A stretch of 64,000 nt of DNA from Labrenzia sp. OB1. Lineage in GTDB: Bacteria; Pseudomonadota; Alphaproteobacteria; Rhizobiales; Stappiaceae. A model generated the notes under the pieces. The model made no database searches and was not told the origin of the DNA. It saw only the letters and a program-made list of their open reading frames with translations. The position numbers and the translations under genes are program-made. The DNA lies in contig NZ_JSEP01000005.1 in the NCBI RefSeq assembly GCF_001624695.1, positions 172,001 to 236,000 of the forward strand, written 5' to 3'. Below are positions 1-19,332 of this stretch, one piece after another. The stretch's first letter is position 1. Every line of letters begins with the position of its first letter.

Positions 1-213
1 AGCAGCAGAGGGCGCCTTGCGGATCGCGCTCCAGTTTGTGGCCAGGGGATCGTCGATCGGCAGGATCGGTGCGGCCAGCGCAATGGCAATGAAGAAGGCG
101 ACGATCACCAGCCCGAACTGGGCGCTTCTGTTGACCTTCAGCTTCTTCCAGGCGCGGTTTTCCGGCCTGACGGTCTCTTCTGCCGGATCGGCGGCGGAGG
201 TCACGGCGCTCAC
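1..213 (-). CDS. Peptide-type ABC importer permease, DppC-like (N-terminal part only)
   Basis: This is the first 71 codons of an inner-membrane permease; the rest lies beyond the left edge. Reading leftward from a GTG at 213, the product starts VSAVTSAADPAEE and soon has a hydrophobic segment (about residues 33-49, LVIVAFFIAIALAAPIL) followed by a periplasmic stretch, which is the usual start of DppC/OppC proteins. The GTG overlaps the stop of the upstream DppB-like gene in a GTGA arrangement, so the two subunits are probably translationally coupled. It is the last visible gene of the leftward gntR-dppDFABC operon. The family assignment rests mainly on position and topology because the signature loop of the permease is outside the window. 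Confidence 0.8.
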   Translation of the reverse strand, partial: MSAVTSAADPAEETVRPENRAWKKLKVNRSAQFGLVIVAFFIAIALAAPILPIDDPLATNWSAIRKAPSAA

Positions 214-1157: not shown

Positions 1158-1178
1158 TCAGGCACTACCCGGTTTGAA

Positions 1179-1207
1179 GCGGATCCCGGCGAGGAGCCGG
1201 GATCCGC
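1179..1207. other. Strong hairpin between binding-protein and permease genes
   Basis: A perfect 12-bp inverted repeat (1179-1190 GCGGATCCCGGC and 1196-1207) with a 5-base loop lies in the gap after the binding-protein stop. No T-run follows on the minus strand, so it does not look like a full intrinsic terminator. By analogy with binding-protein-dependent operons, it may protect the upstream message 3' end or attenuate the distal genes. Confidence 0.75.
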
Positions 1208-1219
1208 GGTTGGTGTGGA

Positions 1220-2725: not shown

Positions 2726-3857
2726 TGTTGTGACTCCTCTCGGAAAGCTTGATTTGAGTTTCTGTTGCGGCCGTGACCGGCTCTTGTCGTTGACTTATTT
2801 CGCGAAACAGCGCGAAACGCTTCTCCGCGTTTTCGCTCCTTGGCGGCTCTCGGACGGAGCCTTGCGAATTCTCGGCGATTTTCTCCCAATGATGGCAGGC
2901 GACCATCCGCGCGTTGGCAACGTCGGTCAGCGCGGGTTTTTCCGTGCCGCACAGGCTGGTCGCATGTGGGCAGCGGGGGTGAAAGCGGCAGCCTGACGGA
3001 GGGGCGAGCGGCGAGGGCACGTCGCCTGTCAGGGAAACGTCCATGGACCGGCCATGGGGCGAGGCAATCGGGATTGCCCGCATCAGCGCCTGCGTATAGG
3101 GATGCAGCGGTTTGTCGTACAACGGGTCATTGGGCGCCAGTTCGACGATTTCACCGAGATACATCACGGCGATGCGGTCGCTCATGTGCCGGATGACCGC
3201 GAGATCATGGGCAATCAGGATCAGCGTCAGGTCGAATTCGGCCTTCAGGTCCTCCAGAAGATTGATGACCTGGGCCTGCACGGAGACGTCGAGGGCGGAG
3301 ACCGGTTCGTCGCCGACAATCACCTTCGGGCCGCTGGCCAGGGCCCGCGCGATGCCGATACGCTGGCGCTGGCCGCCGGAAAACTCATGCGGATAGCGGT
3401 TGGCGAAAGCCGCGCGGAGGCCGACCTTTTTCAAAAGATCCGCCACTTTCAGGCGCCGTTCCTTGCGCGAAAGCGACGTGTGAACCTTCATCGGCTCCTC
3501 GATCAGCGCGCCGACGGTCATGCGCGGATTGAGCGAGGAAAACGGGTCCTGGAAGACGAACTGAAGATCCTTGCGCAGGCGGCGCATCTCCGGTTCTGAA
3601 AGAGACGAGATGTCATTGCCCTCGTAGAGCACCGCGCCCTCGGATGCCGGCAGCAGCCGCACCAGCAGACGGGCAAGTGTGGACTTTCCGCAGCCGCTTT
3701 CGCCGACAATCGAGAAAGTTTCCCCGCGCCGGATGTCCAGGGACACCTCGTTGACGGCGCCGACGGACACAGAGCGGCCGAACAGGCCCTTGCTGCTGGC
3801 AAACCGCTTTGTGGCTGAGCGCGTCTCGATGATCCTGTCGCGGGTCGGCAGCCTCAT
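2718..3857 (-). CDS. Peptide-type ABC importer ATPase, DppF-like
   Basis: A 379-residue cytoplasmic ATPase. Walker A is GESGCGKST, the Q-loop lies in QFVFQDPFSSLNPRM, the signature is FSGGQRQR, Walker B is KVIVGDEP and the H-loop is in IAHDLAVI. The C-terminal oligopeptide-transporter region with CRFHPRCPHA is present, which marks DppD/DppF/OppD/OppF subunits. After that region there is a further tail of roughly 55 charged residues, longer than usual, that runs through the ribosome site of the next gene. It overlaps the DppD-like gene by 4 bases (ATGA) and the binding-protein gene by 8 bases. Function as the second ATPase of the importer is secure; substrate is not known. Confidence 0.93.
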   Translation of the reverse strand: MRLPTRDRIIETRSATKRFASSKGLFGRSVSVGAVNEVSLDIRRGETFSIVGESGCGKSTLARLLVRLLPASEGAVLYEGNDISSLSEPEMRRLRKDLQFVFQDPFSSLNPRMTVGALIEEPMKVHTSLSRKERRLKVADLLKKVGLRAAFANRYPHEFSGGQRQRIGIARALASGPKVIVGDEPVSALDVSVQAQVINLLEDLKAEFDLTLILIAHDLAVIRHMSDRIAVMYLGEIVELAPNDPLYDKPLHPYTQALMRAIPIASPHGRSMDVSLTGDVPSPLAPPSGCRFHPRCPHATSLCGTEKPALTDVANARMVACHHWEKIAENSQGSVREPPRSENAEKRFALFREISQRQEPVTAATETQIKLSERSHNNA

Positions 3858-4882
3858 GATCCGGCCTCCTGGAGCACGGTCTCGGGGAACATCGTCTCCA
3901 GCGGGGCGTAATGGCAGGCGGCCCGGTGGGAAGGGCCGAGTTCGTCAAGCGGCGGTGTCGAGATCTCGCAATTCGCCTGTGCGAAGGGGCACCGGGGCGT
4001 GAAGCGGCATCCCGAAGGCATTTGATCGATCGCCGGTACCATGCCACCGATCGTCGCAAGCCTGCCGGAGCGCGGACCGACGGAAGGAACGGAGCTCATC
4101 AGGCCGATCGTATAGGGGTGCTGGGGATCGTCGAAGATGGAGGCCACCGGACCGTCCTCAACCATGTGGCCGGCATACATGACGCAGACCCTGTCGGCGA
4201 TTTCCGCGACAACGCCCAGGTCGTGGGTGATCATGACGAGAGCCGTCCCGGTTTCCTTCTGAAGCTCCTCGACCAGATCGATGATCTGGGCCTGGATCGT
4301 AACGTCCAGCGCAGTGGTCGGCTCATCTGCGATCAGCACCGCCGGATCATTCGCAAGAGCCATGGCGATCATGACCCGCTGGCGCATGCCGCCGGAAAGC
4401 TCGTGCGGATAGTCGTCCAGCCGGCTGGATGCGGCGGGGATCTTCACCCGATCCAGCATCTGCAGCGCGCGCTGCCGCGCCTCGGCCCGGGTCACATGCT
4501 TATGGCGCAGCACGACCTCGGCAATCTGATCTCCGATCCTGTAGGAGGGATTGAGCGAGGTCATCGGCTCCTGAAAAATCATCGAGATCGTATTGCCGCG
4601 AAGATCCGCCATGGCGCGTTGCGACAGCTCAAGCAGATCGCGATCACCGAACATGGCTGTGCCGGACATGACCTGTGCGACGGACCGGGGCAGCAACCCC
4701 ATGAGGGACAGGGCGGTGACCGACTTGCCGCAACCGCTCTCGCCGACGATACACAGGGTCTCGCCCGGGCAGACAGCGAAGGAAATACCGTCGATGATGT
4801 TGGCGGGGGCGCCCTTGAAGCGGAGCGCGAGATTTTCGACGATGAGAACGGGAGTGACGTTCGGGTCAGTGACCTTCGACAT
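3854..4882 (-). CDS. Peptide-type ABC importer ATPase, DppD-like
   Basis: A 342-residue ATPase partner of the DppF-like subunit. Walker [10 protein letters not shown] is near residue 52, then the Q-loop in [13 protein letters not shown], the signature LSGGMRQR, Walker [13 protein letters not shown] and the H-loop ITHDLG. The C-terminal segment has [14 protein letters not shown], the cysteine-containing peptide-importer tail. The coding sequence starts inside the end of the upstream GntR regulator gene (17-base overlap) and ends overlapping the DppF-like start, so it is transcribed with both. The tight linkage to the regulator argues that the GntR protein controls this importer and itself. Confidence 0.93.
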
Positions 4883-5588
4883 CGGCCACCTCTGTCACGT
4901 TCTGGTAGAGAAGGCGCTGCTGGAGGGCCAGAAGATGGCTGCGCATGGCTTTTTCCGCTGAGACCGGGTCGCGATTCTCAATGGCCTTGATGATATCGAC
5001 ATGCTGGGACTTGTAGAGCGTCATCGCGTCACTGGTCCTGAGCGCTTCGCGCACATGGCGCCAGGCCGCATCCTGCCGGACCCGGTCGACGACATCGAAC
5101 AGCGCCAGGAACAGTGCGTTCTTGGCGGCGCGCGCGATGGCCCGGTGCAGGGCGCTGTCCCAGAGTTCCCGGCCATCCATGTCCTCGGCCTTTCCGAGGC
5201 GGCCGGCAACCTCGCGCATGGCGGCGATATCCGCCGAATTGGCCCGCAGGGCCGCGAGACGGGCAAGGACGGGTTCTATCTGCAGCCGGACTTCCATCAC
5301 TTCGAGCATGTTGGAATTCTCGTGCAGGGAAAGGATCTGCTTTTCCGGGTGGGCGGGTTCGCTCCCGATGAACGTTCCCGCACCCTGTCTCCGCCAGATT
5401 TTGCCCTCTGTTTCAAGCACTTCCAGTGCACGTCGCACCGCCCTGCGGCCGACGCCGATGGTTTCGGACAGCTCGCGCTCGGTGGGAACCTGCTCGGCTC
5501 CTTCGGCCGTCAGCTGATCGACGATGATCCTGAGCCGCTCTAGAGCCATGCTGGAATTCCGCTGAGAAGGCTTTTCCGTTTCGTTCAT
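4866..5588 (-). CDS. GntR-family transcriptional regulator, FadR subfamily
   Basis: A 240-residue DNA-binding regulator. Residues about 12-70 form the winged helix-turn-helix (VPTERELSETIGVGRRAVRRALEVLETEG), and the rest is an all-helical FCD ligand-binding domain with conserved Arg/His-rich positions. The reading frame extends upstream to 5696, but I chose the ATG at 5588 (MNETEKPSQ) because the extra residues look non-coding and an inverted repeat suited to an operator lies just upstream. It is the first gene of the leftward importer operon and overlaps the DppD-like gene. Most FadR-type regulators are repressors released by a carboxylate or amino-acid-like effector; the effector here is unknown. 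Confidence 0.88.
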   Translation of the reverse strand: MNETEKPSQRNSSMALERLRIIVDQLTAEGAEQVPTERELSETIGVGRRAVRRALEVLETEGKIWRRQGAGTFIGSEPAHPEKQILSLHENSNMLEVMEVRLQIEPVLARLAALRANSADIAAMREVAGRLGKAEDMDGRELWDSALHRAIARAAKNALFLALFDVVDRVRQDAAWRHVREALRTSDAMTLYKSQHVDIIKAIENRDPVSAEKAMRSHLLALQQRLLYQNVTEVADVEGH

Positions 5589-5603
5589 GCCACACCAATC
5601 CGA

Positions 5604-5619
5604 ACCAATTTGAATTGGT
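5604..5619. promoter_or_regulatory. Candidate GntR operator palindrome
   Basis: ACCAATT-TG-AATTGGT is a perfect 7+7 inverted repeat with a 2-base spacer, 16 bases upstream of the chosen gntR start. Its position suits autoregulation of the gntR-importer operon. That GntR binds it is inferred from location only. Confidence 0.55.
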
Positions 5620-6177
5620 GTCAGTATTGTTGGGAAATCTTCGGCGCGCAACCCTCCACGATGAGGCTTCCGGTGGCGTGTTTGCCTTTGCCTCAACTGA
5701 ATTCCTTAGGCGAAGTTCAACCGTTTTGTCGCAATGAACTTGCCCTAATGACTTGTTTTAAGAGAAATATTTTTCCGACTTGGTAAGTCCGTAGCTCTCC
5801 GGTTTTTCGAGAGGTGTCTGGTGTTGCTTGAAATTTGTGCGATGGAACAAATTTTAATCGGTCACCTAACGGTCGAGATTATCAACGCGAGCGCGCAAGG
5901 AAATTTCGAAAATTTCAGTAAAATGTCCAAAATATTCTGACCGAGCGGTAGGAATAGTCTATGTATTTCAAGATGGTTGTTCGGTCCTGAGCCCTCTGGG
6001 CAAGGAAAGGCGATAACCAGTTGATTGGTTCGCTTCAGATATCCTGTGACGGGAAATGCGAGTGGTGATGTTTTGGGCGTGCCGGATCTTTGGGCGATGG
6101 CGCAATTGACAAGAGTTTTGTCTTCGGCAATCCTCCGATGGACATAGCGGCATTCGTTCAGCCGCATGGCAACCGCG
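5620..6177. other. Gene-free divergent intergenic region
   Basis: About 560 bases between the two divergent importer operons hold no convincing gene. The part near 5700-5960 is AT-rich and probably contains the divergent promoters. A long antisense frame that covers part of it is a shadow of amiC. A small hairpin (GACAA-GAGTT-TTGTC, 6108-6122) and another with GCGGC/GCCGC arms (6147-6165) occur in the part likely transcribed as the amiC leader. I did not find clearly identifiable -35/-10 boxes. Confidence 0.5.
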
Positions 6178-6220
6178 CCCCGATCTGTCGCAGCTGATAC
6201 CTGCGGGTCGGGGTTTTTTT
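6178..6220 (+). terminator. Intrinsic terminator in the leader of the amiC operon
   Basis: Outer arms CCCCGA (6178-6183) and TCGGGG (6208-6213), inner arms CGCAG (6189-6193) and CTGCG (6201-6205), followed at once by seven T residues (6214-6220). It points toward amiC and ends about 58 bases before its ATG. There is no gene upstream on this strand, so it is best read as an attenuator that the downstream ANTAR protein could override. Confidence 0.75.
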
Positions 6221-6278
6221 GTGCCCGGCCGTAATTGCGCGTTCTCGAAGTGTCGGACTGGTGGAGTTGAAGGTGAAC

Positions 6279-7517
6279 ATGGCTTTGAGGGAGATTCCGG
6301 TCGGCGTCCTGTTTTCGAAATCCGGATCCTATTCCGTGATCGGCCAGGAAGCCTATTGGGGTGCCCGCATCGCTATCGACGAAATCAACGCGTCCGGGCA
6401 GTTCGATTTCCGCTTCCTGAGGGTTGACGGCGAGCCTGCAGGCCTGGCTGAGAACTATGCCGTCGAGGCTGACCGGTTGATGCGTGAAGCCGGATGCCGC
6501 CACATTGTCGGCACCCAGACCTCGTCCAGCCGCAAGGAAGTGCTTCCGGTTCTGGAGCGCGGACGCGGACTGCTCTGGTATACGACGCCCTATGAGGGCT
6601 TCGAGAGCCATGACAGGGTCGTCTATACGGGGGCCTGTCCGAACCAGGGGGTTGTTCCGCTCTTTCGCCACATCGTGCCGGAATACGGACGCGATGCCTT
6701 TCTGATCGGTTCCAACTATATCTGGGGCTGGGAAACCAACCGTATCGCCCGCGAACTTCTGGCTGGTTGCGACGGCGAGGTACTCGGCGAGAGATATGTC
6801 GCGATCGGTGACGAGAATATCGTTCATCTGATCGCGGAAATTCGCGAAAAGCGGCCTTCTTTCATCTTCAACAACCTGATCGGCGTCAGCAGCTATGCGT
6901 TTCTTCGCGCCATGAAGGAACTGGCTGGCGAAGAGTCCGCCTTCGCGCCGGGTCGCTGTCCGATCCTGAGCTGCAACCTGACCGAGGCGGAACTGCCGGT
7001 TCTGGGCGCTGCGGCGGATGGACTGATTTCCACCTCGACTTATTTCGAAACGCTGGAAACACCGGAAAACGCTGCCCTTCGCGCACGTCTTGAAGGAATG
7101 CGTGGTCCGGAGAGGGCGATCTCCTCCATGTTCGTCGGGCCGTATGAGGCGGTCTGGCTCCTGGCGCGGGCGATCGAAGCTTGCGGGAGCGATCATCCGG
7201 ACGACGTGCTGGCGGAGCTTTGCCGTCAACCCCACAAGACGCCTCTCAGGGAGATCCGCATCGATCCGCAAACCCAGCATGCTCACCTGCTGCCGTTGAT
7301 CGCGGTGGCAGAGACGTGCGGCCATTCGGGCGATGGTGCGGCTGGGCGATCGCGCTTTCGCATCGTCGAAAAGACGCCTGGACCTCTGGCCCCGGATCCC
7401 TATCTCGTTCACTACGATCCGCTGGACACGGGCGCCGCAGGTCGCCCGGCGGGCTCTGCGCGGATGTCCGCTCCGGTGGCCGGCAACGCCTCGAAGCTGA
7501 GGCTGGTGTCGTCATGA
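6279..7517 (+). CDS. amiC: AmiC/UrtA-like amide-sensing binding protein
   Basis: A 412-residue protein of the type 1 periplasmic-binding fold, closest by look to AmiC, the cytoplasmic amide sensor, and to UrtA-type binding proteins. It begins MALREIPVGVLFSKSGSYSV without a signal peptide, which fits a cytoplasmic sensor rather than a transport protein. Recognisable stretches are GQEAYWGARIAIDEINASG near residue 23 and SNYIWGWETNR near 146. The frame opens at 6219, but the ATG at 6279 lies after the terminator and is preceded by purine-rich ribosome-site sequence. It overlaps the AmiR-like gene by ATGA, the classic amiC-amiR arrangement, in which AmiC sequesters AmiR until an amide ligand binds. 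Confidence 0.85.
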   Translation: MALREIPVGVLFSKSGSYSVIGQEAYWGARIAIDEINASGQFDFRFLRVDGEPAGLAENYAVEADRLMREAGCRHIVGTQTSSSRKEVLPVLERGRGLLWYTTPYEGFESHDRVVYTGACPNQGVVPLFRHIVPEYGRDAFLIGSNYIWGWETNRIARELLAGCDGEVLGERYVAIGDENIVHLIAEIREKRPSFIFNNLIGVSSYAFLRAMKELAGEESAFAPGRCPILSCNLTEAELPVLGAAADGLISTSTYFETLETPENAALRARLEGMRGPERAISSMFVGPYEAVWLLARAIEACGSDHPDDVLAELCRQPHKTPLREIRIDPQTQHAHLLPLIAVAETCGHSGDGAAGRSRFRIVEKTPGPLAPDPYLVHYDPLDTGAAGRPAGSARMSAPVAGNASKLRLVSS

Positions 7518-8116
7518 GCAATCTGTTCCGCACCCCCAGTTTCCGAGGCTGGTCCGCCAGCATCCTGCACAAACCGCATACGGACCGTGACGCTGTGTGC
7601 CGTCAGCTTGACCGTCTCGGTGTGGAGATTTCGACCGCGTGGCCGGAACTGCCGGCTGGGGCCGAACAGGCAGACCTTCTCATATTCGATGCAGATGCTG
7701 GCCATGATGCCCAGTTTCCGTGGCCGGCCGATGCCCATCCAATGCCGATGATCGCCCTGATGGGAACCGAAGCGCCGGGACGCGTCGAATGGGCGATCCG
7801 GCGCGGGGCCATCGCCCATCTCAACAAGCCGGTCACGTCAAGCGGTGTTTATGGCGCGCTGGTCGTCGCGCAGCGGACCTTTACCATGCGCCGCGCCTCC
7901 GAGGAGCGCATCGCCACACTGGAGGCACGGCTTGCCTGCCGACCGCAGGTCGCGGAGGCCATCCTTCTGCTCATGCAGCATCAGGACGGCGATGCGGAAA
8001 CGGCCTACCGTCTGCTGCAGGACATGGCGATGAAGAGCCGCCAGACCATTGAGGCCGTGGCCAGGGATCTGATCGAGCGTGCGGGAGGGGAGAATGACGG
8101 CCGACGCGAAGCCTGA
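7514..8116 (+). CDS. amiR: AmiR-like ANTAR-domain antitermination regulator
   Basis: A 200-residue RNA-binding regulator. The N-terminal about 120 residues form a degenerate receiver-like domain without an obvious phosphorylation pocket (DLLIFDADAG, then LMGTEAPGRVEWAIRRGA). A coiled-coil linker (SEERIATLEARL) and a C-terminal ANTAR domain follow (RPQVAEAILLLMQHQ, then AYRLLQDMAMKSRQ). ANTAR proteins bind paired hairpins in leader RNA and prevent termination, and AmiR is held inactive by AmiC. The start overlaps amiC by 4 bases and its end overlaps the next permease gene by 23 bases. A terminator sits just upstream of amiC, so autogenous antitermination of the whole operon is likely. Confidence 0.87.
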   Translation: MSNLFRTPSFRGWSASILHKPHTDRDAVCRQLDRLGVEISTAWPELPAGAEQADLLIFDADAGHDAQFPWPADAHPMPMIALMGTEAPGRVEWAIRRGAIAHLNKPVTSSGVYGALVVAQRTFTMRRASEERIATLEARLACRPQVAEAILLLMQHQDGDAETAYRLLQDMAMKSRQTIEAVARDLIERAGGENDGRREA

Positions 8117-8996
8117 ACTCCTTCCGGTTGCCGCCACCGATCTGCCGCGAGGTGTTTTGTGGAGACTGGTTCGCAGAAAGCTGGCACTTTTTGCCATGGT
8201 CGTGATCGGGATCATCGTCGGGGCAGCCCTGTTCGCGCCGCTGGTCGCGCCTTTCAATCCGGAAGAACAGTTCTTTGAGGGCCTGACACTGGAAGGCGCG
8301 CCACTGCCGCCAGGCGAAAGGTTCTGGCTCGGCACGGATCTTCTCGGCCGGGATCTGTTGTCGCGGCTGATCTACGGAGCCAGAACGTCGCTCATCATCG
8401 GGATCGTGGCAAACGGTATTGCCGTGGTGGTCGGGGCTTTCGTCGGCATTCTCGCAGGCTTCTTCCGCGGCTGGGTGGAGACGCTGCTCATGCGGTTCAC
8501 CGACCTGATGATGGCTTTTCCGGCGCTTCTTCTGGCGATCACCCTGGCGGCGATCTTCCAGCCTTCGCTATGGATCGTCGCCATGGTCATCGCCATGGTG
8601 AACTGGGTGCAGATGGCGCGTGTCGTCTATACGGAAACCAGGTCGCTTTCGGAGCGGGAGTTCATTCTCGCCGAGCGGGCCATGGGAGCGGGGCTGTTCC
8701 GCATCCTGTTCCGTCACATTCTGCCGCACCTTTTGTCCTCCATCGTGGTCTTCGGCACGGTCGGCATTTCCACGACCGTGCTTCTGGAGGCAACGCTCAG
8801 CTATCTGGGCATCGGCGTGCAGCCGCCGACTCCTTCCTGGGGCAACATCATCTACGAGAACCAGACCTATTTCACCTCCGCTCCCTGGCTGGTGTTCTTC
8901 CCCGGCTTCGCGATTATCGCCCTGGCGCTGGGCTTCAATCTCCTGGGCGACAGCTTGCGGGAAGTGCTTGATCCGACCCAGAAGGGGAGGCACTGA
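8094..8996 (+). CDS. Peptide-type ABC importer permease, DppC-like
   Basis: A 300-residue inner-membrane permease of the DppC/OppC family. The N-terminal helix (LALFAMVVIGIIVGAALFAPLV) is followed by a periplasmic loop with WLGTDLLGRDLLSRLIYGA, a hallmark of this subunit. Five further helices follow, with the ATPase-coupling loop around EFILAERAMGAG. The ATG at 8094 is preceded immediately by a GGGAGGGGA ribosome site; an upstream GTG in the same frame at 8079 is less likely. It overlaps the end of amiR, which ties the regulator to the transport genes. It pairs with the DppB-like subunit 2 bases downstream. Confidence 0.93.
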   Translation: MTADAKPELLPVAATDLPRGVLWRLVRRKLALFAMVVIGIIVGAALFAPLVAPFNPEEQFFEGLTLEGAPLPPGERFWLGTDLLGRDLLSRLIYGARTSLIIGIVANGIAVVVGAFVGILAGFFRGWVETLLMRFTDLMMAFPALLLAITLAAIFQPSLWIVAMVIAMVNWVQMARVVYTETRSLSEREFILAERAMGAGLFRILFRHILPHLLSSIVVFGTVGISTTVLLEATLSYLGIGVQPPTPSWGNIIYENQTYFTSAPWLVFFPGFAIIALALGFNLLGDSLREVLDPTQKGRH

Positions 8997-8998
8997 TC

Positions 8999-9919
8999 AT
9001 GGGTGGATATGTCCTGCGGCGCGTCCTGCAATCGTTGCTCATCCTGCTCGGGATTTCGTTCCTGACATTCATCCTCTTGTACCTGATCCCGGCGGATCCG
9101 GCGCGCCAGATCGCAGGCCGCAGCGCAACGGCGCAGACGGTGGAGAACATCCGCGAGCAACTGGGTCTCAACCTGCCGTTCTACCAGCAGTATTTCCGCT
9201 ATCTGACGGGCCTTTTGCAGGGCGATCTCGGGCGGTCCTATCTGCAGAAGACGGAAGTCGGCGAGCTGATCCGCTCACGCCTGCCCGCCACTCTCCTGCT
9301 GATGGCGGGCGCGATCATCTGCGAACTTGCCATCGGCCTGACAATGGGAATCGTTGCAGCTCTTCGCCGCAACACGGCGACGGATACAAGCCTCATGGTG
9401 CTTTCCTTCGTCGGCGTTTCCTCGCCGCAATTCGTGATCGGCATCCTGCTTCTCTATGTGTTCTCGGTGCAGCTCGGGTGGTTTCCGATCGGTGGTTACG
9501 GGACATTCCGGCACATGGTCCTGCCGTCGCTGACGCTCGGTCTGCTGGGCGCCGGCTGGTATTCGCGCATGATGCGCTCGTCGATGATCGATGTGCTGCG
9601 CCAGGACTTCATCCGCACGGCGCGGGCCAAGGGGCTGAAGCGCTGGCAGGTGCTGTTCGGCCATGCCATGCCGAACGCGCTGCTGCCGGTGATCGCGATG
9701 ATCGGCATCGATATCGGCCTGTTCATGAGTGGCATCGTCGTGGTGGAAAGCGTTTTCGGATGGCCGGGCATCGGACAGCTCGCCTGGCAGGCCATCCAGC
9801 GCGTCGACATCCCGATCATTATGGGCGTAACGCTCGTCTCCGCATTCGCGATCGTTCTCGGAAACTTCCTCGCCGACCTGATCGTGCCCCTGATTGATCC
9901 GAGGATCAAGCTGCGCTGA
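8999..9919 (+). CDS. Peptide-type ABC importer permease, DppB-like
   Basis: A 306-residue permease of the DppB/OppB family with the expected N-terminal helix (LQSLLILLGISFLTFILLYL), the LIPADPARQIAG motif after it, and a coupling loop with DFIRTARAKGLKRWQV near residue 205. Length is normal. It starts two bases after the DppC-like gene. Unlike many operons DppC precedes DppB here. A 73-base gap separates it from the binding-protein gene. The pair forms the channel for the substrate delivered by the protein encoded at 9993. Confidence 0.93.
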   Translation: MGGYVLRRVLQSLLILLGISFLTFILLYLIPADPARQIAGRSATAQTVENIREQLGLNLPFYQQYFRYLTGLLQGDLGRSYLQKTEVGELIRSRLPATLLLMAGAIICELAIGLTMGIVAALRRNTATDTSLMVLSFVGVSSPQFVIGILLLYVFSVQLGWFPIGGYGTFRHMVLPSLTLGLLGAGWYSRMMRSSMIDVLRQDFIRTARAKGLKRWQVLFGHAMPNALLPVIAMIGIDIGLFMSGIVVVESVFGWPGIGQLAWQAIQRVDIPIIMGVTLVSAFAIVLGNFLADLIVPLIDPRIKLR

Positions 9920-9992
9920 TGCGCGGAAAGAATGCCGGGAAATCCACCGAAAGAGCGGACCGGCTGAATCACCTTAACCTGGAGGTTTGATC

Positions 9993-11615
9993 ATGAATAG
10001 AACACTTCTGGCAGGGGCTGCCGCCCTTCTTGCCGCCACGGCTCTCACACCCGCGCAGGCGGATGACATCAAACAGGGTGGGTCGATGATCGTCACCTAC
10101 AAGGACGATGTCTCCACGCTCGATCCGGCAATCGGTTATGACTGGCAGAACTGGTCGATGATCAAGAGCCTGTTCGACGGTCTGATGGACTACGAACCGG
10201 GCACGACCAACCTGATGAACGACCTTGCCGAGGACTACACGATTTCCGACGACGGCAAGGTCTTCACCTTCAAGCTGCGCGAGGGTGTCAAGTTCCACAA
10301 TGGCCGCGAGTTGACTGCGGAAGATGTCAAATACTCGCTCGACCGGGTTACCAATCCCGAGACCCAGAGCCCGGGCGCCGGTTTCTTCGGCTCCATCAAG
10401 GGCTTTGACGCCGTCGCCGCCGGCGACGCCGACAGCCTTGAAGGGGTGACGGTGGTCGACCCCTATACGGTGAAGATCGAACTGTCCCGCCCGGACGCGA
10501 CGTTCCTGCACGTGATGGCGATCAACTTCTCGTCCATCGTTCCCAAGGAAGCCGTAGAGGAATGGGGCGCCGATTTCGGCAAGCACCCGGTCGGCAGTGG
10601 CGCGTTTTCGCTGGAAGAGTGGACCCTCGGACAGCGGCTGGTGTTCAAGCGCAACGACGACTACTGGCGCGCCGGTGTGCCGAAGCTCGACGAGATCACC
10701 TTCGAGGTCGGCCAGGAGCCGATTGTCGCCCTTTTGCGCCTGCAGCGCGGCGAGGCCGATATTCCGGGCGACGGCATTCCGCCGGCGAAGTTCCTCGAGG
10801 TCGCAGAGGATCCGCAATACAAGGACCTGATCATCGAGGGGGGGCAGCTGCACACCGGTTATGTCACCATGAATGTGAAGATGCCGCCTTTCGACAAGCC
10901 GGAAGTGCGCAAGGCCGTCAACATGGCGATCAACAAGGATCGCATCGTGCGCATCATCAACGGCCGCGCCGTTCCGGCCAACCAGCCGCTGCCGCCGACC
11001 ATGCCGGGCTACGACACCAACTACGAAGGCTATGCTTACGATCCGGAGGCCGCAAAAGCACTTCTGGCCGAGGCTGGCGTCGGCGACGGTTTCGAGACGG
11101 AACTCTACGTCTACAACACCGATCCGAACCCCCGTATCGCCCAGGCCATCCAGGCGGATCTCGCCGCCATCGGCATCAAGGCTGAAATCAAGGCGCTGGC
11201 CCAGGCCAATGTCATCGCAGCCGGCGGCGAACCCGATCAGGCGCCGATGATCTGGTCCGGCGGCATGGCCTGGATCGCCGACTTCCCGGATCCGTCCAAC
11301 TTCTACGGCCCGATTCTCGGCTGCGCCGGCGCGGTCAAGGGAGGCTGGAACTGGTCCTGGTACTGCAACGAGGAGCTGGACGCGCTGGCAACGGCCGCCG
11401 ACAGCATGACGGACCCGTCCCAGAAGGCCGAGCGCGAGGAAGCCTGGCGCAAGATCTTCATCGCGGTAATGGATGACGCGGCCTGGGCACCGGTCTTCCA
11501 TGAACAGCGTTTCACAATGCGGTCCGAGCGGCTGGGTGGTCCTGACGCCATCTTCGTCGATCCGGTCCATATTCCCGTCAACTACGATTATGTATGGGCG
11601 AAAGATGTGCAGTAA
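9993..11615 (+). CDS. ABC importer binding protein, SBP family 5
   Basis: A 540-residue secreted binding protein of the DppA/OppA family. The signal peptide is MNRTLLAGAAALLAATALTPAQA. Landmarks are DDVSTLDPAIGYD, LAEDYTISDDGKVFTFKLR with FHNGRELTAEDVKYSLDR, and KAVNMAINKDRIV. ATG 9993 is supported by GGAGG at 9981-9985; a TTG two codons upstream in the same frame is less likely. The end overlaps the acetamidase gene by 11 bases. That overlap, with an amide sensor at the head of the operon, suggests the ligand is an amide or amide-bearing compound rather than an ordinary peptide. That is an inference. Confidence 0.93.
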   Translation: MNRTLLAGAAALLAATALTPAQADDIKQGGSMIVTYKDDVSTLDPAIGYDWQNWSMIKSLFDGLMDYEPGTTNLMNDLAEDYTISDDGKVFTFKLREGVKFHNGRELTAEDVKYSLDRVTNPETQSPGAGFFGSIKGFDAVAAGDADSLEGVTVVDPYTVKIELSRPDATFLHVMAINFSSIVPKEAVEEWGADFGKHPVGSGAFSLEEWTLGQRLVFKRNDDYWRAGVPKLDEITFEVGQEPIVALLRLQRGEADIPGDGIPPAKFLEVAEDPQYKDLIIEGGQLHTGYVTMNVKMPPFDKPEVRKAVNMAINKDRIVRIINGRAVPANQPLPPTMPGYDTNYEGYAYDPEAAKALLAEAGVGDGFETELYVYNTDPNPRIAQAIQADLAAIGIKAEIKALAQANVIAAGGEPDQAPMIWSGGMAWIADFPDPSNFYGPILGCAGAVKGGWNWSWYCNEELDALATAADSMTDPSQKAEREEAWRKIFIAVMDDAAWAPVFHEQRFTMRSERLGGPDAIFVDPVHIPVNYDYVWAKDVQ

Positions 11616-12555
11616 CTGCAAGGCCGCTTACACCATCCACGCGGCACAGCATCACTTCGGCTGGGACAATTCGTTTGCCCCGGCCGAGACGGTGGCTCCC
11701 GGTACGGTGCTCGAATTCGAGTGCCTCGACAGTTCCGCGGGGCAACTGACGCCGGAGAGCACCGTCCAGGATGTTGCGGACCTGGATTTCGGCAAGATCA
11801 ACCCGGTCAATGGCCCCATCCGTGTGGATGGGGCCGAGCCGGGCGATGCACTGGTCGTGAAGATCCATGAGTTCAAGCCATCCGGTTTCGGTTGGACCGC
11901 CAACATTCCTGGCTTCGGTCTGCTGGCAGATCAGTTCAAGGATCCGGCGCTGCACATCTGGTCCTATGACAAGGACAAGCCGGTCACGTCCGCCTTCGCT
12001 CCTTTCGGAAAGGTGCCGCTCAAACCCTTCGCCGGGACGATCGGCGTCGCGCCGGCGGAGGCTGGACTGCATTCCATCGTGCCCCCGCGGCGCGTCGGTG
12101 GAAACATGGATATCCGCGACCTTGCCGCCGGAACGACGCTTTATCTGCCGATCGAGGTCGCGGGTGCGCTGTTTTCCATCGGCGATACTCATGCCGCTCA
12201 GGGCGACGGCGAAGTCTGTGGCACGGCCATCGAGAGTCCGATGAACACGGTGATCGAACTGGATCTCATCAAGGGCGCGGACCTGAAGATGCCGCGTTTC
12301 GAGACGCCGGGCCCTGTCACCCGGCATCTGGATGAAATGGGCTATGAGGTTACGACCGGGATCGGTACCGATCTCTTCGCGGGCGCTCAGGCGGCCGTGT
12401 CGAACATGATCGATCTCCTGTGCGCCCGCCACGGATACAGTGCGGTTGATGCCTACATGCTGTGTTCGGTGTGCGGCGATCTGAGGATCTCGGAAATCGT
12501 CGATGCTCCGAACTGGGTCGTGTCCTTCTATTTCCCGAAGGTCGTGCTCCAGTAG
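11605..12555 (+). CDS. fmdA: Acetamidase/formamidase family amidohydrolase
   Basis: A 316-residue enzyme of the FmdA_AmdA family, which hydrolyses short aliphatic amides (formamide, acetamide and relatives) to the acid and ammonia, usually with a bound metal. Diagnostic stretches are HHFGWDN near residue 17 and GDTHAAQGDGEVCGTAIE near residue 193. The start ATG at 11605 overlaps the last codons of the binding-protein gene; no signal peptide is present, so it acts in the cytoplasm on imported substrate. Its place between the binding protein and the ATPase of an amiC/amiR-headed operon makes it the probable catabolic output of the system. The exact amide is not known. Confidence 0.9.
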   Translation: MCSNCKAAYTIHAAQHHFGWDNSFAPAETVAPGTVLEFECLDSSAGQLTPESTVQDVADLDFGKINPVNGPIRVDGAEPGDALVVKIHEFKPSGFGWTANIPGFGLLADQFKDPALHIWSYDKDKPVTSAFAPFGKVPLKPFAGTIGVAPAEAGLHSIVPPRRVGGNMDIRDLAAGTTLYLPIEVAGALFSIGDTHAAQGDGEVCGTAIESPMNTVIELDLIKGADLKMPRFETPGPVTRHLDEMGYEVTTGIGTDLFAGAQAAVSNMIDLLCARHGYSAVDAYMLCSVCGDLRISEIVDAPNWVVSFYFPKVVLQ

Positions 12556-12612
12556 TCACATCCGGGCGGTGGTCATACGACTGCCGCCCGCCTTATCAAG
12601 CCCGATACCAGA

Positions 12613-14412
12613 GTGAACAGAGTGTCCACATCGCCAGATCCCTGCGCGTCCTCCGACGGCGTCGTTCTTTCCGTCCGGGGGCTTTGCACCGACGTTGCCA
12701 CGCCAACCGGAGCAAGGGCCGTGGTGAGCAACCTCTCCTTCGATCTGCGGCGGGGGGAAACGCTGTGTATCGCCGGAGAGTCCGGTTCCGGAAAATCCAT
12801 CACCGCGCTGTCGATCATGGGGTTGCTGCCGGAACGGATGGCCCGGGTTTCGGGTGGAGAGGTGCTGTTTGAGGGCCGGGACCTGACGAAGATCCGCGAA
12901 GATGAATTGCGCCGCATTCGCGGCGGCGACATCGCGATGATCTTTCAGGAGCCGATGACGTCGCTGAACCCGGTTCTGACCATTGGGCGGCAATTGCGCG
13001 AGGCTATCCTTGCGCATCAGGACGTTTCGCGGTCGAAGGCGGAAAAGATCGCCCTGACGATGCTTGAGTCGGTGCGGCTCGCGGAGCCCCGCCGCCGTCT
13101 GCGTCAGTATCCGCATGAACTGTCCGGCGGCATGCGACAGCGGGTGATGATCGCCATGGCGCTCGCCTGCAATCCGAAGATCCTCATCGCCGATGAACCG
13201 ACGACAGCCCTCGACGTGACAATCCAGGCGCAGATCCTGCAGCTCATCCGGGACCTGCAGCGCGACTTCGGAACGGCCGTCATCATGATCACCCATGACA
13301 TGGGGGTGGTCGCCGAAATGGCGGACAGGGTGATCGTGATGAACAACGGCAGCATCGTTGAGCGTGGCGAAGTCGCGGATGTCTTCGAGCGGCCGTCTGA
13401 TCCCTATACGCGCCGGCTGCTGGATGCGGTTCCGAAGCTGGGTGCCATGGCCGGTCTCGACAGCGCGCCCAAGGCGGGGCTTCAGGCGCAGCCGCCGGTT
13501 CTTGAGGTGGAGGACCTCGTCGTCCGCTTCGATCTGCACGGCGGACTTCTCAACCGGGTCACTTCCCGCGTCCATGCGGTCGAGGGTGTTTGCCTTCACC
13601 TTGACCCCGGGGAGACCCTTGGGCTGGTCGGGGAAAGCGGCTGCGGAAAATCCACCATCGGCAAGGCGCTCCTGAACCTTGTGCCCTGGGAAGGCTCAAT
13701 CCGGGTGGCGGGACGCCACGCAGGTGTCGGCGGCGCGGCTATGCAGAAGCGCCTGCGCCGGGACATGCAGATGATCTTCCAGGATCCCTATGCCTCGCTC
13801 GACCCGCGCATGACTGTCGGCGACATTGTCGGCGAGCCGCTTGTCATTCACGGGTTGGCGAAAGGACAGGACCTCAAGGACCGTGTCGCTTCGCTTTTCG
13901 AGCGTGTGGGGCTTCCCGCCGACGTACTGGCCCGCCATCCGCACGAGTTCTCCGGCGGACAGCGTCAGCGTATCTGCATAGCCAGGGCGCTTGCGCTGTC
14001 GCCAAAGGTGATCATTGCCGACGAAAGCGTTTCGGCGCTCGACGTTTCCGTGCAGGCGCGTGTGCTGGACCTGCTGCAGGAACTGCAGGAGGAGCTCGGA
14101 CTGTCCTATCTCTTCATTTCGCACGACATGGCCGTGGTGGAAAAGATCTCCCACCGGATCGCCGTGATGTATCTCGGCCAGATTGTGGAGACCGGCACAC
14201 GGCGGCAGGTCTTCGAAAATCCGCAGCATGAATACACGCGGCGTCTTCTGAAAGCGGTGCCCATTCCGGACCCGAAAAAGCGGCGGGCCGTCTTCGATGT
14301 GCCAGCCGGTGAAATTCCCTCGCCCGTGCTGCCCCTCGGACAATCCGTCAGCAGGGTGCGCTATAATGATGTCGGCGAAAAGCATCTGGTTGCGGAGACA
14401 CTTCATGATTGA
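12613..14412 (+). CDS. Fused double ATPase of the peptide-type importer (DppD-DppF, GsiA-like)
   Basis: A 599-residue protein with two complete ABC ATPase domains in one chain, as in GsiA/YejF. The first has Walker A GESGSGKS, signature LSGGMRQR, Walker [13 protein letters not shown]. The second (from about residue 295) has Walker [10 protein letters not shown], signature FSGGQRQR and Walker [13 protein letters not shown], where the usual DEP is DES. The interdomain cysteine-rich HPY tail is reduced. The frame opens at a GTG (12613); a second GTG at 12622 is an alternative start. It supplies both ATPase halves for the permeases encoded at 8094-9919, in contrast with the separate DppD and DppF genes of the leftward operon. 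Confidence 0.92.
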
Positions 14413-14462
14413 ACGGCCAACCTGAAAAAGCCTACAATAGCGGGACTTTGGAGACCGCTGAC

Positions 14463-15071
14463 ATGACGGCATTGGATGACCTTCTGGAGACGGCGCAGGC
14501 CTTGATCTTCGACTGCGACGGCACATTGCTTGCCACGCCGGATCTCTATGCGGGAGCCTGGCAGGCAGCGTTCGCATCCGCAGGGCAGGACATGGCCGCC
14601 GGCTGGTACCACGAGCGGGCAGGCATGTCCGAACACGTTCTGCTCGATGAGTTCGAGAAGGAGCGGTCCGTGATCCTCGACTGGGAGCATGTCGTTCTGG
14701 CCATGCGCTCGGCCGTTCTGCAGCGGATCGGTGCGGTGCGTGAGATTTCCGCCGTGGCCGGCATCGCCCGACGGTTTGAAGGGCAAAAACCAATGGCGGT
14801 TGCTTCCGGTGGCCCCAGGGAGATAGTCACCGCCTCACTTGAAAGTGCCGGATTGATGCCGCTCTTTCATACCGTCGTGACGATGGATGACGTCGCCAAC
14901 GCGAAACCGGCACCCGATCTGTTCCTGGAAGCCGCGCACCGGCTGGGCACGGCTCCGGCGGACTGTCTGGTCTTCGAAGACAGCCGACAGGGCATACAGG
15001 CGGCCCGGAACGCGGAAATGCGTGTCATCGATGTGAACGCCCTGATTGCCGATGAGGCCGCAACGTTCTGA
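14463..15071 (+). CDS. HAD-superfamily phosphatase, beta-phosphoglucomutase-like
   Basis: A 202-residue cytoplasmic hydrolase of the HAD superfamily. Motif I is FDCDGTLL near residue 17, motif II is VASGG, the motif III lysine is in NAKPAPDLF, and motif IV is FEDSRQGIQAA. A small helical cap follows motif I, as in the YqaB/beta-PGM group. I chose ATG 14463 because a GGAG lies 10 bases upstream; the frame itself opens 18 codons earlier. It is the last gene of the rightward operon, 50 bases after the double ATPase. Its substrate and its link to amide metabolism are unclear. Confidence 0.85.
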   Translation: MTALDDLLETAQALIFDCDGTLLATPDLYAGAWQAAFASAGQDMAAGWYHERAGMSEHVLLDEFEKERSVILDWEHVVLAMRSAVLQRIGAVREISAVAGIARRFEGQKPMAVASGGPREIVTASLESAGLMPLFHTVVTMDDVANAKPAPDLFLEAAHRLGTAPADCLVFEDSRQGIQAARNAEMRVIDVNALIADEAATF

Positions 15072-15207: not shown

Positions 15208-16662
15208 TCAATCCGATGGAGCCACCCGGTAAGGCACGATCCCGCGCCGTCCGGGTTCGATGAAAGGATCCTTGTCGATTGCCGGGAAGGCGCGCTGGTC
15301 GCAATTGTCCCTCGGGCAGATCCGGCAGTTCACGCCAATCGGCTCGGGGGGCGAGTTGCTTTCAACATCGAGACCGTCGGCATAGACAATGGCGTCGGCA
15401 TATTTGACTTCGCAGCCGATTCCGAGCGCGTATCTGCGCTCTCCGGTGGGATAGTCGGGCTGATGTTTGGTGACGCTGGTGGCCATGCACAGGTAGTTCA
15501 CGCCATCGGGCATCTGCGCGATTTGTGCGGTGAACTTGTTCGAGTTCTGCTCGAAAGCCTGATGAACATTCCAGCGCGGGCAGGATCCGCCGAACCTGGC
15601 GAACTGGAAGCGGGTGGCGCTGTGTCTTTTGACGACATTGCCGGCGCGGTCAATCTTGACGAAATAGAACGGTAAACCGTTCGCGCCCGGTCGCTGCAGG
15701 GTCGACAAGCGGTGACAGACGGTCTCGATGCTGGCGTCCGTCAGATTCGACAGCAATTGAATGTCGTGACGGCATCTGGTGGCGGCGCGCAGGAAGTCGT
15801 CATAGGGCAGCAGCAGGGCACCCGCGAAATAGTTCCGAAGAGCAAGTCTGGCGATGCTCTGTGCGGATTGGGTCTTGAACTTCGCCCGTTCTACTTCCCC
15901 GGAGATGACATCCTTCACGCAGAGTTCGGCGATGAACGAACCGAGGAGGAAATTCTTGGCCGATTTCGGAATGGCGCGATAGACGGAAATCCGGCGCGTA
16001 TAATCTTCCTGGCGAATAAGGGTTCCCTGGTAGTCGGGATGTTGTTCTACCGTGATCTTGAAGCGCTGCTGCAGCCAGTGAGTCAGGCTGTCGAATTTCG
16101 AGGCGCTGTTCGGCAGACCGATTTCGTAACACAGTTTTTCCGCCGCCCGGTCGAGGGAGTCGACATAGTTGTCGATGTAATGAAAATAGTCGCGAACCTC
16201 GTCGTAGGCGGATTTTCTGAATGAAGCGCCGGCTTCTCCCGCACCGCTCATGTGCACCAGTTCGTCTTCGATGGCGTCGCGATCCTGAAAACCGCGAAGG
16301 TTGCCGTAAAGATCCATGATGGCCTTGGTTATTCCAGGCGCGCGGGTGACCAGTTCATGCAGTTCCTGCTTGCCGATGGCAGAACTGTGGAACCTTGTGT
16401 CGGCGAAGATTTCCTGCAGGTCCCGAACGACCCGGTCGAGATCGTTCTTCTCGAAGGCTGCCAGATCGGTTCCGAAGATGCGGTTGATGGACAGGAGGAC
16501 CGATGCCGTGACCGGCCTGTTGTTGTTTTCGATCTGGTTGACGTAGGCGGTCGACAGGCCGACCTTTCTGGCGAACTCTCCCTGGGACAGACCGAACTCC
16601 GATCTGATCTGCCGCAGCGTGTGGCCTGAATAGAGTTTCTTGTTCAAGACACCATCCCCCAT
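15208..16662 (-). CDS. ScfR/RamB-type helix-turn-helix regulator of short-chain acyl metabolism
   Basis: A 484-residue regulator. The first 75 residues are a Cro/XRE helix-turn-helix (LRQIRSEFGLSQGEFARKVG, then STAYVNQIENN). The middle resembles the ImmA/IrrE-like segment, and the C-terminal third is the ScfR (DUF2083) domain ending with a cysteine cluster (CRICPRDNC). Such proteins (RamB, and the short-chain fatty acyl regulators of alphaproteobacteria) control propionate, acetate or glyoxylate pathways; no target of that kind is adjacent here. The IrrE-like segment lacks a visible HExxH, so peptidase activity is not claimed. Two palindromes lie in its upstream region. Confidence 0.87.
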   Translation of the reverse strand: MGDGVLNKKLYSGHTLRQIRSEFGLSQGEFARKVGLSTAYVNQIENNNRPVTASVLLSINRIFGTDLAAFEKNDLDRVVRDLQEIFADTRFHSSAIGKQELHELVTRAPGITKAIMDLYGNLRGFQDRDAIEDELVHMSGAGEAGASFRKSAYDEVRDYFHYIDNYVDSLDRAAEKLCYEIGLPNSASKFDSLTHWLQQRFKITVEQHPDYQGTLIRQEDYTRRISVYRAIPKSAKNFLLGSFIAELCVKDVISGEVERAKFKTQSAQSIARLALRNYFAGALLLPYDDFLRAATRCRHDIQLLSNLTDASIETVCHRLSTLQRPGANGLPFYFVKIDRAGNVVKRHSATRFQFARFGGSCPRWNVHQAFEQNSNKFTAQIAQMPDGVNYLCMATSVTKHQPDYPTGERRYALGIGCEVKYADAIVYADGLDVESNSPPEPIGVNCRICPRDNCDQRAFPAIDKDPFIEPGRRGIVPYRVAPSD

Positions 16663-18372: not shown

Positions 18373-19179
18373 TTACGCGAATGGTTTCCAGAGTCGGTCA
18401 AGATCAAAGGTACTCACGTCCCGGATCAACTCGATGAACTCCCTGGCGGCATGATCGAGAGACAGCCTGCCTTTTTCGGCTGTTGCTCCTGCCGCATTGC
18501 CAAGCGCTCCTGCAGGGTTCAGGTCCTGGGCCAACCAGCCGAACTGTGCTTTTCCGTGGCCGCGAAGATGCTTGAATTCCTTCAGAAACTTCTGCTGTTC
18601 GGAGAGAAAATCCTTCGTCAAGTCCATGCGTACGAGCTCGGGGTGCAAATGCAGCATCAGCGATGTCTCCACGTCACCGCCATGTATGCCGTAGGTGAAT
18701 TCCTCTTGCGGATAAAGACCTTCCGGCTGACCGAAGCGGAGCCAGTTCGTTGCCGTCACGAACATGCCGTGTTTCACTCGTAGGTCGCGGGCCACGATAT
18801 CGAGGACCGGCACATTGCCGCCGTGGGAGTTGATCAGCACCAGCTTGCGGATGCCTGCTCTGGAGACGCTTTCGCCGATCTCCAGCCAGCAGCGGGTGAC
18901 CGTTTCCCAGGACAGGGTCAATGTGCCGGGCGAGTGGATATGTTCGTCCGACTTTCCCACCGCCTGAACGGGAAGAAATGTTACCGGCAAGTCCTCGGGC
19001 AGGAGCTCCACAACGCGGCGGATCTGGCCCTGCGCGATGGCGGTGTCGGTAAAGAGCGGCAAGTGGGGGCCGTGCTGCTCGATCGCCGCAACCGGTAGAA
19101 CGGCGATCCAGTCTTCCCGGGCCGGGTCGTTGAAATCGACTGTCGTCATTTCATGCCAGAAACGCTTGGGCAGCATCAT
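18373..19179 (-). CDS. Creatininase-family amidohydrolase
   Basis: A 268-residue protein of the creatininase/MftE/ArfB family, metal-dependent amidohydrolases that act on cyclic or amide substrates. The metal-binding signature parts are visible: AAIEQHGPHLPLFTDT near residue 33 (Glu, His, Asp ligands), then INSHGGN near residue 118 and a later HGGDVETSLML. The start is ATG 19179 or the next codon 19176; earlier in-frame starts add an unlikely N-terminus. The adjacent LysR gene suggests inducible expression. Creatinine itself is only one possible substrate; formamide-type intermediates or peptide amides are alternatives. Confidence 0.85.
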   Translation of the reverse strand: MMLPKRFWHEMTTVDFNDPAREDWIAVLPVAAIEQHGPHLPLFTDTAIAQGQIRRVVELLPEDLPVTFLPVQAVGKSDEHIHSPGTLTLSWETVTRCWLEIGESVSRAGIRKLVLINSHGGNVPVLDIVARDLRVKHGMFVTATNWLRFGQPEGLYPQEEFTYGIHGGDVETSLMLHLHPELVRMDLTKDFLSEQQKFLKEFKHLRGHGKAQFGWLAQDLNPAGALGNAAGATAEKGRLSLDHAAREFIELIRDVSTFDLDRLWKPFA

Positions 19180-19332
19180 TATGTTCCTGTCCGGGTTGGT
19201 GTCTGCGCCCTCTTTGCATACCCCGGCGGGGCAGGCAAGAGCTGGCCGGCATCCGGCCAATCACGCACATATGATCGGTGTTTGGGGATGATGTTCAGAC
19301 TTTACTGACTTGTTGCGGGGACAATCCGTGCC

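Follow-up and report, generated by a model that had tools for sequence, protein, structure and literature searches.

A probable L-amino acid amide operon with an AmiC-AmiR regulator pair in Labrenzia sp. OB1, and its conserved RNA leader

Which compound is sensed, imported and hydrolysed by an operon that joins the regulators of the classic ami system to a peptide-type transporter, and how are its genes switched on? These questions are raised by a locus of Labrenzia sp. OB1 (NCBI RefSeq assembly GCF_001624695.1), located in a window of 64,000 nucleotides (contig NZ_JSEP01000005.1, positions 172,001 to 236,000 of the forward strand). The locus encodes an AmiC-like sensor, an AmiR-like antiterminator, an ATP-binding cassette (ABC) importer of the Opp type and an amidase of the FmdA_AmdA family. 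We conclude, with a probability of about 0.82, that the unit is inducible and lets the cell import and hydrolyse L-amino acid amides, with antitermination by AmiC-AmiR as its switch. What was observed is the gene content, its conservation, a pair of mutually exclusive hairpins ahead of amiC, and the close identity of the binding protein to a protein of known structure whose ligand resembles an amino acid amide; the ligand of AmiC, the binding of AmiR to the leader and the substrate of the enzyme in its host are what we infer. The reading would tie L-amino acid amides, a sparsely studied class of nutrients, to many alphaproteobacteria of sea and soil, in which regulator, importer and enzyme form a single unit.

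The region was read by means of open reading frame calls, Pfam, NCBIfam and translations. Its features, in window coordinates, are as follows.

6106 to 6134, + strand: putative promoter read from the sequence, TTGACA (6106-6111), 17-nucleotide spacer and weak -10 element AATCCT (6129-6134)
6147 to 6165, + strand: P1, first leader hairpin, GCGGC and GCCGC around a 9-nucleotide loop; folds in the truncated leader
6168 to 6179, + strand: P2, hairpin GGC and GCC around the loop AACCGC, putative ANTAR-type antiterminator, its 3' arm doubling as the terminator base; formed when the truncated leader is folded
6177 to 6220, + strand: intrinsic terminator, a hairpin followed by seven T, which cannot form together with P2 (fold, alignment and covariance model)
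6279 to 7517, + strand: amiC-like cytoplasmic ligand sensor, 412 amino acids (Peripla_BP_5, E 4.9e-91)
7514 to 8116, + strand: amiR-like pseudo-receiver and ANTAR antiterminator, 200 amino acids, its ATG overlapping the amiC stop (AmiR_N and ANTAR, both over the cut-off)
8094 to 8996, + strand: OppC/DppC-type permease, overlapping amiR (Pfam, NCBIfam)
8999 to 9919, + strand: OppB/DppB-type permease (Pfam, NCBIfam)
9993 to 11615, + strand: periplasmic binding protein SBP_bac_5, 540 amino acids (Pfam; PDB match to 8upi_A)
11605 to 12555, + strand: FmdA_AmdA-family amidase, 316 amino acids, probable L-amino acid amidase, its ATG overlapping the stop of the binding protein gene (Pfam, NCBIfam)
12622 to 14412, + strand: fused OppD-OppF-type double ATPase with a GTG start (Pfam, NCBIfam)
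14463 to 15071, + strand: HAD-family hydrolase, adjoining the operon and outside the conserved unit (Pfam)

By analogy with Pseudomonas aeruginosa, cytoplasmic AmiC without ligand would hold AmiR, and transcription from the putative promoter near 6106-6134 would stop at the terminator at 6177-6220. Once an amide enters the cell, AmiC would bind it and free AmiR, which would then bind the leader and stabilise P2 (6168-6179). Since P2 takes the 5' arm of the terminator, the terminator could not form and the whole operon would be read. The family-5 binding protein, the two permeases and the fused ATPase would import L-amino acid amides, which the FmdA-family enzyme would split into amino acid and ammonia.

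Gene content and conservation of the unit

The genes between 6279 and 14412 are seven intact open reading frames, all on the forward strand, head to tail and tightly packed, with several overlaps of a few bases. The initial annotation, made from the sequence alone, had named AmiC, AmiR, two permeases, a binding protein, a double ATPase and an amidase, and all of them are present, intact and co-directional. It had also described AmiC as lacking a signal peptide, which is borne out by eye on the translated N-terminus (MALREIPVGVLFSKSG). The best PDB match of AmiC is P. aeruginosa AmiC (1pea, E 1.1e-48), and AmiR matches 1qo0_D (E 4.6e-10). No nitrilase-family amidase of the AmiE type was detected by Pfam among the operon proteins.

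In order to assess conservation, AmiR was searched in 397 genomes of the order Rhizobiales, with a match in 100. Of the 41 closest places outside the genome itself, 40 were fetched and one (G358) was dropped on account of a split gene; gene presence at these 40 AmiR loci was scored by tblastn with the window proteins. Thirty of the 40 keep the full order amiC-amiR-oppC-oppB-sbp-fmdA-oppDF (amiC of L057 runs into a contig end), and in two others (L060, L063) the operon itself is cut by contig ends. In five loci (L041, L044, L045, L048, L066) amiC-amiR is accompanied by an alpha/beta hydrolase in place of the FmdA-like amidase, and the Opp-type importer is another one; in two (L040, L042) an FmdA-like gene and an alpha/beta hydrolase are both present. 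All seven of these hydrolases score over the TIGR01250 proline-iminopeptidase cut-off, so that the amidase is replaced in 5/40 loci, and accompanied in 2/40, by an enzyme of the proline-iminopeptidase family.

A second set comprises the best 80 loci found with an FmdA alignment, of which 71 have a clear amiC match. The two sets share some genomes, and the 112 AmiRs and 111 AmiCs collected from them are therefore not all from distinct genomes. At the level of the class, the amidase was found at E <= 1e-60 in 18 of 289 genomes, its own included, and the FmdA-like protein of Roseibium marinum is 99% identical to that of the window. The same gene order in 30/40 loci, together with the enrichment of the leader described below, indicates that the arrangement is more than chance, and the earlier view that sensor, antiterminator, peptide-type importer and amidohydrolase form one unit is supported by the conserved gene order. 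The interval assigned to the operon, 6178-15071, does contain the seven genes, but its limits need correction at both ends. The HAD gene at the 3' end has no tblastn match (E <= 1e-5) in the 40 AmiR loci and a match of at least 50 bits in only one of the 80 FmdA-alignment loci, that of R. marinum, which places it outside the conserved unit; at the 5' end the unit begins earlier, with TTGACA at 6106-6111 and the leader hairpin and terminator reaching to 6220. As a side observation, amiR may be interrupted in Sinorhizobium meliloti Ak57, on whose pSymB (L183, 9001-9599) the AmiR match falls into two parts and the gene list shows no ANTAR gene from the amiC-like gene to the permease.

The operon resembles the P. 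aeruginosa ami operon in its AmiC and AmiR homologues. It differs in its enzyme, which is of the FmdA family instead of a nitrilase-family aliphatic amidase, in its Opp-type ABC importer, and in having amiC-amiR at the head of the operon. On a Klebsiella plasmid described in 2026, a 'cluster 5' ABC transporter belongs to an operon with amiC-amiR-amiE (PMC13209695); AmiC-AmiR is there likewise joined to an importer of two permeases, a binding protein and an ATPase, the enzyme there being AmiE. As far as that source goes, it is a precedent for the combination of AmiC-AmiR with a peptide-type importer, which the initial annotation had put forward as a departure from classic ami operons. Another Klebsiella plasmid record holds genes for a branched-chain-type ABC transporter and for FmdA-family, AmiC-like, ANTAR and nitrilase-family proteins. 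The 'cluster 5' transporter we take to be of the peptide/nickel type. This kind of operon is already known, and the earlier interpretation was right in direction and too bold in novelty. Among the papers listed in searches of the open literature, which cover few subscription papers, none dealt with the AmiC-AmiR control or the leader of the FmdA-importer operon; the RNA leader is possibly the part that the literature explains least, and only the details of the RNA switch look new.

Substrate of the importer, the enzyme and the sensor

The binding protein matches PDB 8upi_A with E 8.3e-282 over residues 25-540 and is 78% identical to it over the mature length. The entry is titled 'Structure of a periplasmic peptide binding protein from Mesorhizobium sp. 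AP09 bound to aminoserine', so the organism differs from the Roseibium-like host of the window. The 'aminoserine' of the title is presumably L-serinamide. According to a 2024 Biochemistry paper the 8UPI protein reportedly binds L-amino acid amides, with about 610 relatives linked to FmdA_AmdA amidases, and operons of this type are said in its abstract to hold SBP_bac_5, ABC genes and an FmdA_AmdA amidase. The window has both hallmarks, a close SBP_bac_5 relative and an FmdA_AmdA amidase beside ABC genes. An AlphaFold model of the binding protein was poor (predicted local distance difference test score, pLDDT, 55.6; predicted template modelling score, pTM, 0.52) and served only to retrieve the title and the identity. 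It had been proposed that a larger amide-bearing compound is sensed and imported, and the identity to 8UPI lends support to a ligand larger than acetamide.

The amidase shares the motifs GGN-[LM]-D and GD-x-HA-x-x-GDGE with four solved FmdA_AmdA relatives. Against the NCBIfam formamidase equivalog NF045496 it scores 130.4 bits, the cut-off being 500, and a canonical FmdA (608 bits) is encoded on another contig of the same genome. The name acetamidase/formamidase, as first given, is thus correct for the family, whereas a strict formamidase is unlikely. An L-selective amidase of the formamidase family (Sonke et al. 2005; from Ochrobactrum anthropi, by title) is cited in PMC7431475, where L-proline amidase and LaaA are listed as amino acid amide hydrolases. 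Two loci of the Ochrobactrum/Brucella group, L096 and L117, carry the operon and its amidase; in the genome of L096 the operon amidase is the only FmdA_AmdA gene found, and that of L117 has one more. The window amidase is a likely, still putative orthologue of the O. anthropi L-amidase. LaaA, we assume, belongs to the proline-iminopeptidase family. The identity to 8UPI, the low formamidase score, the link to Ochrobactrum and the alternation with proline-iminopeptidase-family enzymes together point to amino acid amides as the substrate, and the exchange of enzymes behind the same regulators backs this substrate class from a second direction.

The sensor pocket was compared by aligning the window AmiC to P. 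aeruginosa AmiC and to UrtA, the contact residues of UrtA being placed by spacing. Ser122 and Tyr190 of UrtA hydrogen-bond urea, with Tyr141 nearby (PMC10392092), and Ser82, Tyr147 and Tyr101 of the window AmiC are their identical counterparts; Ser85, Tyr104 and Tyr150 of P. aeruginosa AmiC are also kept. The position of Tyr83 in AmiC, Trp120 in UrtA, is Gln80 in the window protein and is I, V, T or Q in 91/101 main-type AmiCs (a motif count, in which the motif may sit elsewhere in a few). As far as an alignment can tell, this replacement would fit a roomier pocket and a larger ligand, without being proof of either.

Two other substrates have to be weighed. The operon could serve simple aliphatic amides (acetamide, formamide), like the classic ami and fmd systems, with the peptide-type importer carrying small amides. 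The family of the enzyme and the homology of AmiC to the acetamide sensor of P. aeruginosa agree with this, as does the Klebsiella plasmid, where the transporter paired with amiC-amiR-amiE probably takes up acetamide (PMC13209695). However, an enzyme so far below the formamidase cut-off, a separate canonical FmdA in the genome, a binding protein so close to one solved with 'aminoserine' and a sensor that does not keep Tyr83 make such a role very improbable. A slightly better, if still slim, chance belongs to a larger peptide amide or amidated natural product as the true substrate, with amino acid amides as mere intermediates or surrogate ligands and the hydrolase trimming what is imported. Relatives of this Opp/Dpp/Gsi-type importer bind di- to oligopeptides, and the alternative operons pair a proline-iminopeptidase-family enzyme with another Opp-type importer; yet the closest solved relative was crystallised, by its title, with a single-residue ligand, and there is no other peptidase among the seven conserved genes.

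The RNA leader and the ANTAR loop rule

Control by an AmiC-AmiR pair had been proposed at the outset and the pair is confirmed, but the RNA leader, the most telling regulatory evidence, had gone unmentioned. The locus combines what is expected of AmiC-AmiR antitermination: a sensor without a signal peptide adjoins AmiR, and the leader holds a terminator and a hairpin that exclude each other. The amiE leader of P. aeruginosa also has a terminator with an overlapping P2 hairpin (PMC3369931). The terminator folds with -17.1 kcal/mol (z -3.06); the 151-nucleotide region folded alone gives an uninformative z of -0.87. An Rfam family was sought for the leader region, with only a chance match (E 2.9).

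Leaders of 38 loci were aligned, leaving out L037 (short upstream sequence), L070 (where the element was not seen) and L057 (whose amiC start is missing). In this alignment 95.4% of the terminator helix is paired, 4/7 of its pairs have changed on both sides, and its score is well above slid controls. For P1, 67.3% of cells are paired and all 5/5 pairs show changes on both sides; its loop length varies, and it is absent or weak-looking in several leaders. P2 pairs in 38/38 leaders, a count that is partly circular because P2 had been placed with a pattern (36 rows) or manually (2 rows). The paired fraction of P1 and P2 together is 80.6%, against at most 53.0% in slid controls. RNAalifold recovered P2 and part of the terminator from the alignment, and did not recover P1.

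By published descriptions, ANTAR proteins target a pair of hexaloops that carry A1 and G4, and in the structure of EutV with RNA G4 is the only base-specific contact, stacking on Tyr164 and, in P2, being held by Arg142, Lys149 and Glu160 (PMC3369931, PMC8934654, PMC7496416). A P2 with an A1 loop that merges into a terminator was found in 33/39 upstream regions, compared with 114/7922 windows of the same loci (leaders included); when A1 was not demanded the counts were 35/39 and 359/7922. An earlier scan, too strict at the 3' end (14/39 versus 95/8878), is superseded by the first of these. The covariance model built on the alignment matches the window at 6117-6219 with E 8.4e-8, as a training sequence, and the next best match in the 6.0-Mb genome has E 9.1. 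Twenty whole genomes were searched with it. The nine carrier genomes have their best match (E <= 1.4e-4) at the amiC-amiR locus, and as all nine are training sequences only the lack of matches elsewhere is informative; the ten genomes without an AmiR match have no leader match below E 0.11. The remaining one, G081, whose AmiR locus (L070) has no importer, gives only E 0.30. One carrier, G265, has an additional match (E 6.5e-4) outside the training set, by a paralogous AmiC-AmiR pair with another Peripla_BP_5 (UrtA-like) protein.

Within 300 nucleotides upstream of amiC, the model matches at E <= 1 in 63 of the 71 FmdA-alignment loci with amiC, 54 of them with the core outside the training set. 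By eye, seven of the eight remaining loci have an A-starting six-base-loop hairpin followed by a GC-rich hairpin, with a T run that is clear in L096, L117, L124 and L128 and short in L088, L103 and L140; the P2 stem of L128 is GCC/GGC instead of GGC/GCC. For the eighth, L091, the sequence available upstream is too short. TTGAC is seen close to where the leader match starts in 45/64 FmdA-alignment loci with a match, compared with 182/3891 control windows of 80 nucleotides.

Several observations weigh against an amino acid amide operon under AmiC-AmiR antitermination. Regarding the unit, its modules can part: L070 has amiC-amiR with a distant FmdA only, the importer missing and no leader element of the operon type seen upstream; two loci of uncultured Granulosicoccus, a gammaproteobacterial genus (L094, L110), have importer and amidase with no AmiC-AmiR match nearby, which suggests that the uptake and hydrolysis module can move without its regulator; and in L108, L126 and L156 the amidase is present and the AmiC match absent. 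Regarding the substrate, the ligand of 8UPI is taken from an entry title, and the orthology with the O. anthropi enzyme is putative. Regarding the leader, simple scans called neither the terminator at 6177-6220 nor the promoter at 6106-6134, which is accordingly weak by consensus. The covariation score of P1 and P2 (0.084) is lower than that of slid partners (+1: 0.123; +2: 0.107), so both hairpins rest on conservation and pairing and not on covariation. Finally, the loops depart from the ANTAR rule. The P2 loop of the window, AACCGC, has A1 and no G4, its P1 loop has 9 nucleotides, and the P1 of operon leaders is not a canonical A1/G4 hexaloop. In P2, A1 is present in 36/38 aligned and 52/54 further leaders (88/92) and G4 in 4/38 and 6/54 (10/92); the 54 were counted apart, as they were found with the model trained on the 38, which may favour A1 and should not favour the absence of G4. 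It could be argued from the missing loop code and the uncalled terminator that AmiC-AmiR acts elsewhere or otherwise, and that the terminator before amiC is part of a transcript from upstream or works constitutively. This we consider the least probable of the three alternatives to amino acid amide uptake under antitermination, since the next upstream gene (GntR family, 4866-5696, - strand) reads away, leaving no + strand transcript in sight that would need a terminator, and since the element is found again before amiC in loci from many families and has no second site below E 9 in the genome.

The departure of the leaders from the A1/G4 rule is itself well supported by these counts. They resemble leaders of the EutV/NasR type in having a short hairpin whose 3' arm overlaps the terminator, a C:G closing pair and A1 in the loop (PMC3369931, PMC8934654, PMC7496416), and differ in that G4 is mostly missing, which also separates them from the P. 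aeruginosa ami operon, the first hairpin is variable or missing, and the lysine by which EutV contacts G4 is replaced. The column of Lys149, placed in EutV numbering through aligned Ala-Tyr and Ala-Met motifs and not through the EutV sequence, contains V 84, T 16, I 8, L 3, A 1 and K 0 in the 112 AmiRs, the window and the proline-iminopeptidase-type operons included. Lysine is found in P. aeruginosa AmiR, in the NasT-like protein of the Labrenzia genome and in the paralogous AmiR of G265 (locus L075). G265 has a canonical A1/G4 leader by this lysine-bearing AmiR and a variant leader at its operon (L053). In L075 (1946-2162, - strand), two terminator leaders stand in tandem between the paralogous AmiC-AmiR genes and the gene of another Peripla_BP_5 protein, the first with two canonical A1/G4 hexaloops ahead of its terminator and the second with an A1-only P2 as in the FmdA-importer operons; they are possibly a double gate.

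Could loss of the lysine explain loss of G4? Among 17 lysine-bearing ANTAR loci, an A1/G4 P2-terminator was found in 5 (4 with a canonical P1) and one with A1 and no G4 in 2, one locus having both; the five include L075, the source of the idea. A stricter scan of the 40 operon loci gave A1 without G4 in 23, A1/G4 in 3 and nothing in 14, and 25 other loci without lysine gave A1/G4 in 3 and A1 without G4 in 1. The dual canonical motif occurs in 4/17 lysine loci versus 1/65 others. Non-operon loci without lysine, however, keep G4 in 3 of the 4 that have a motif, which argues against lysine as the sole determinant, and the wider sequence test of a link between lysine and G4 is mixed. We therefore put forward only tentatively, as an idea with somewhat less than even prospects, that AmiRs of FmdA-importer operons may read a single A1 hexaloop fused to the terminator, with no G4, matched by loss of the G4-holding lysine (EutV Lys149), unlike EutV and NasR. 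If true, such a variant code could prevent cross-talk among several ANTAR systems that share a cell. The conserved leader provides a compact group of probable ANTAR targets that do not obey the accepted loop rule, and lets the rule of RNA choice be examined directly.

Surroundings and other sites

The only other ANTAR-domain match in the Labrenzia genome (contig C14, L076) is the NasT-like receiver-ANTAR protein, beside an NMT1-family (NasS/NrtA-like) protein; by eye, a terminator-like hairpin lies ahead of the next gene. Upstream of the operon, 210-5696 on the - strand of the window holds a second, divergent Opp-type ABC operon (permease, SBP_bac_5 and two oligo_HPY ATPases) with a GntR/FCD regulator, and OppDF-like genes upstream of amiC on the opposite strand are also seen in L033, L034 and L035. 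Downstream, a gene at 15208-16662 (- strand) encodes a RamB/ScfR-type regulator of short-chain acyl-CoA metabolism, with 431 bits for an NCBIfam cut-off of 700. A creatininase-family gene follows at 18373-19260 (- strand); in Sinorhizobium meliloti, a protein of this family has been shown to be a formamidase of the riboflavin pathway (PMC9478397).

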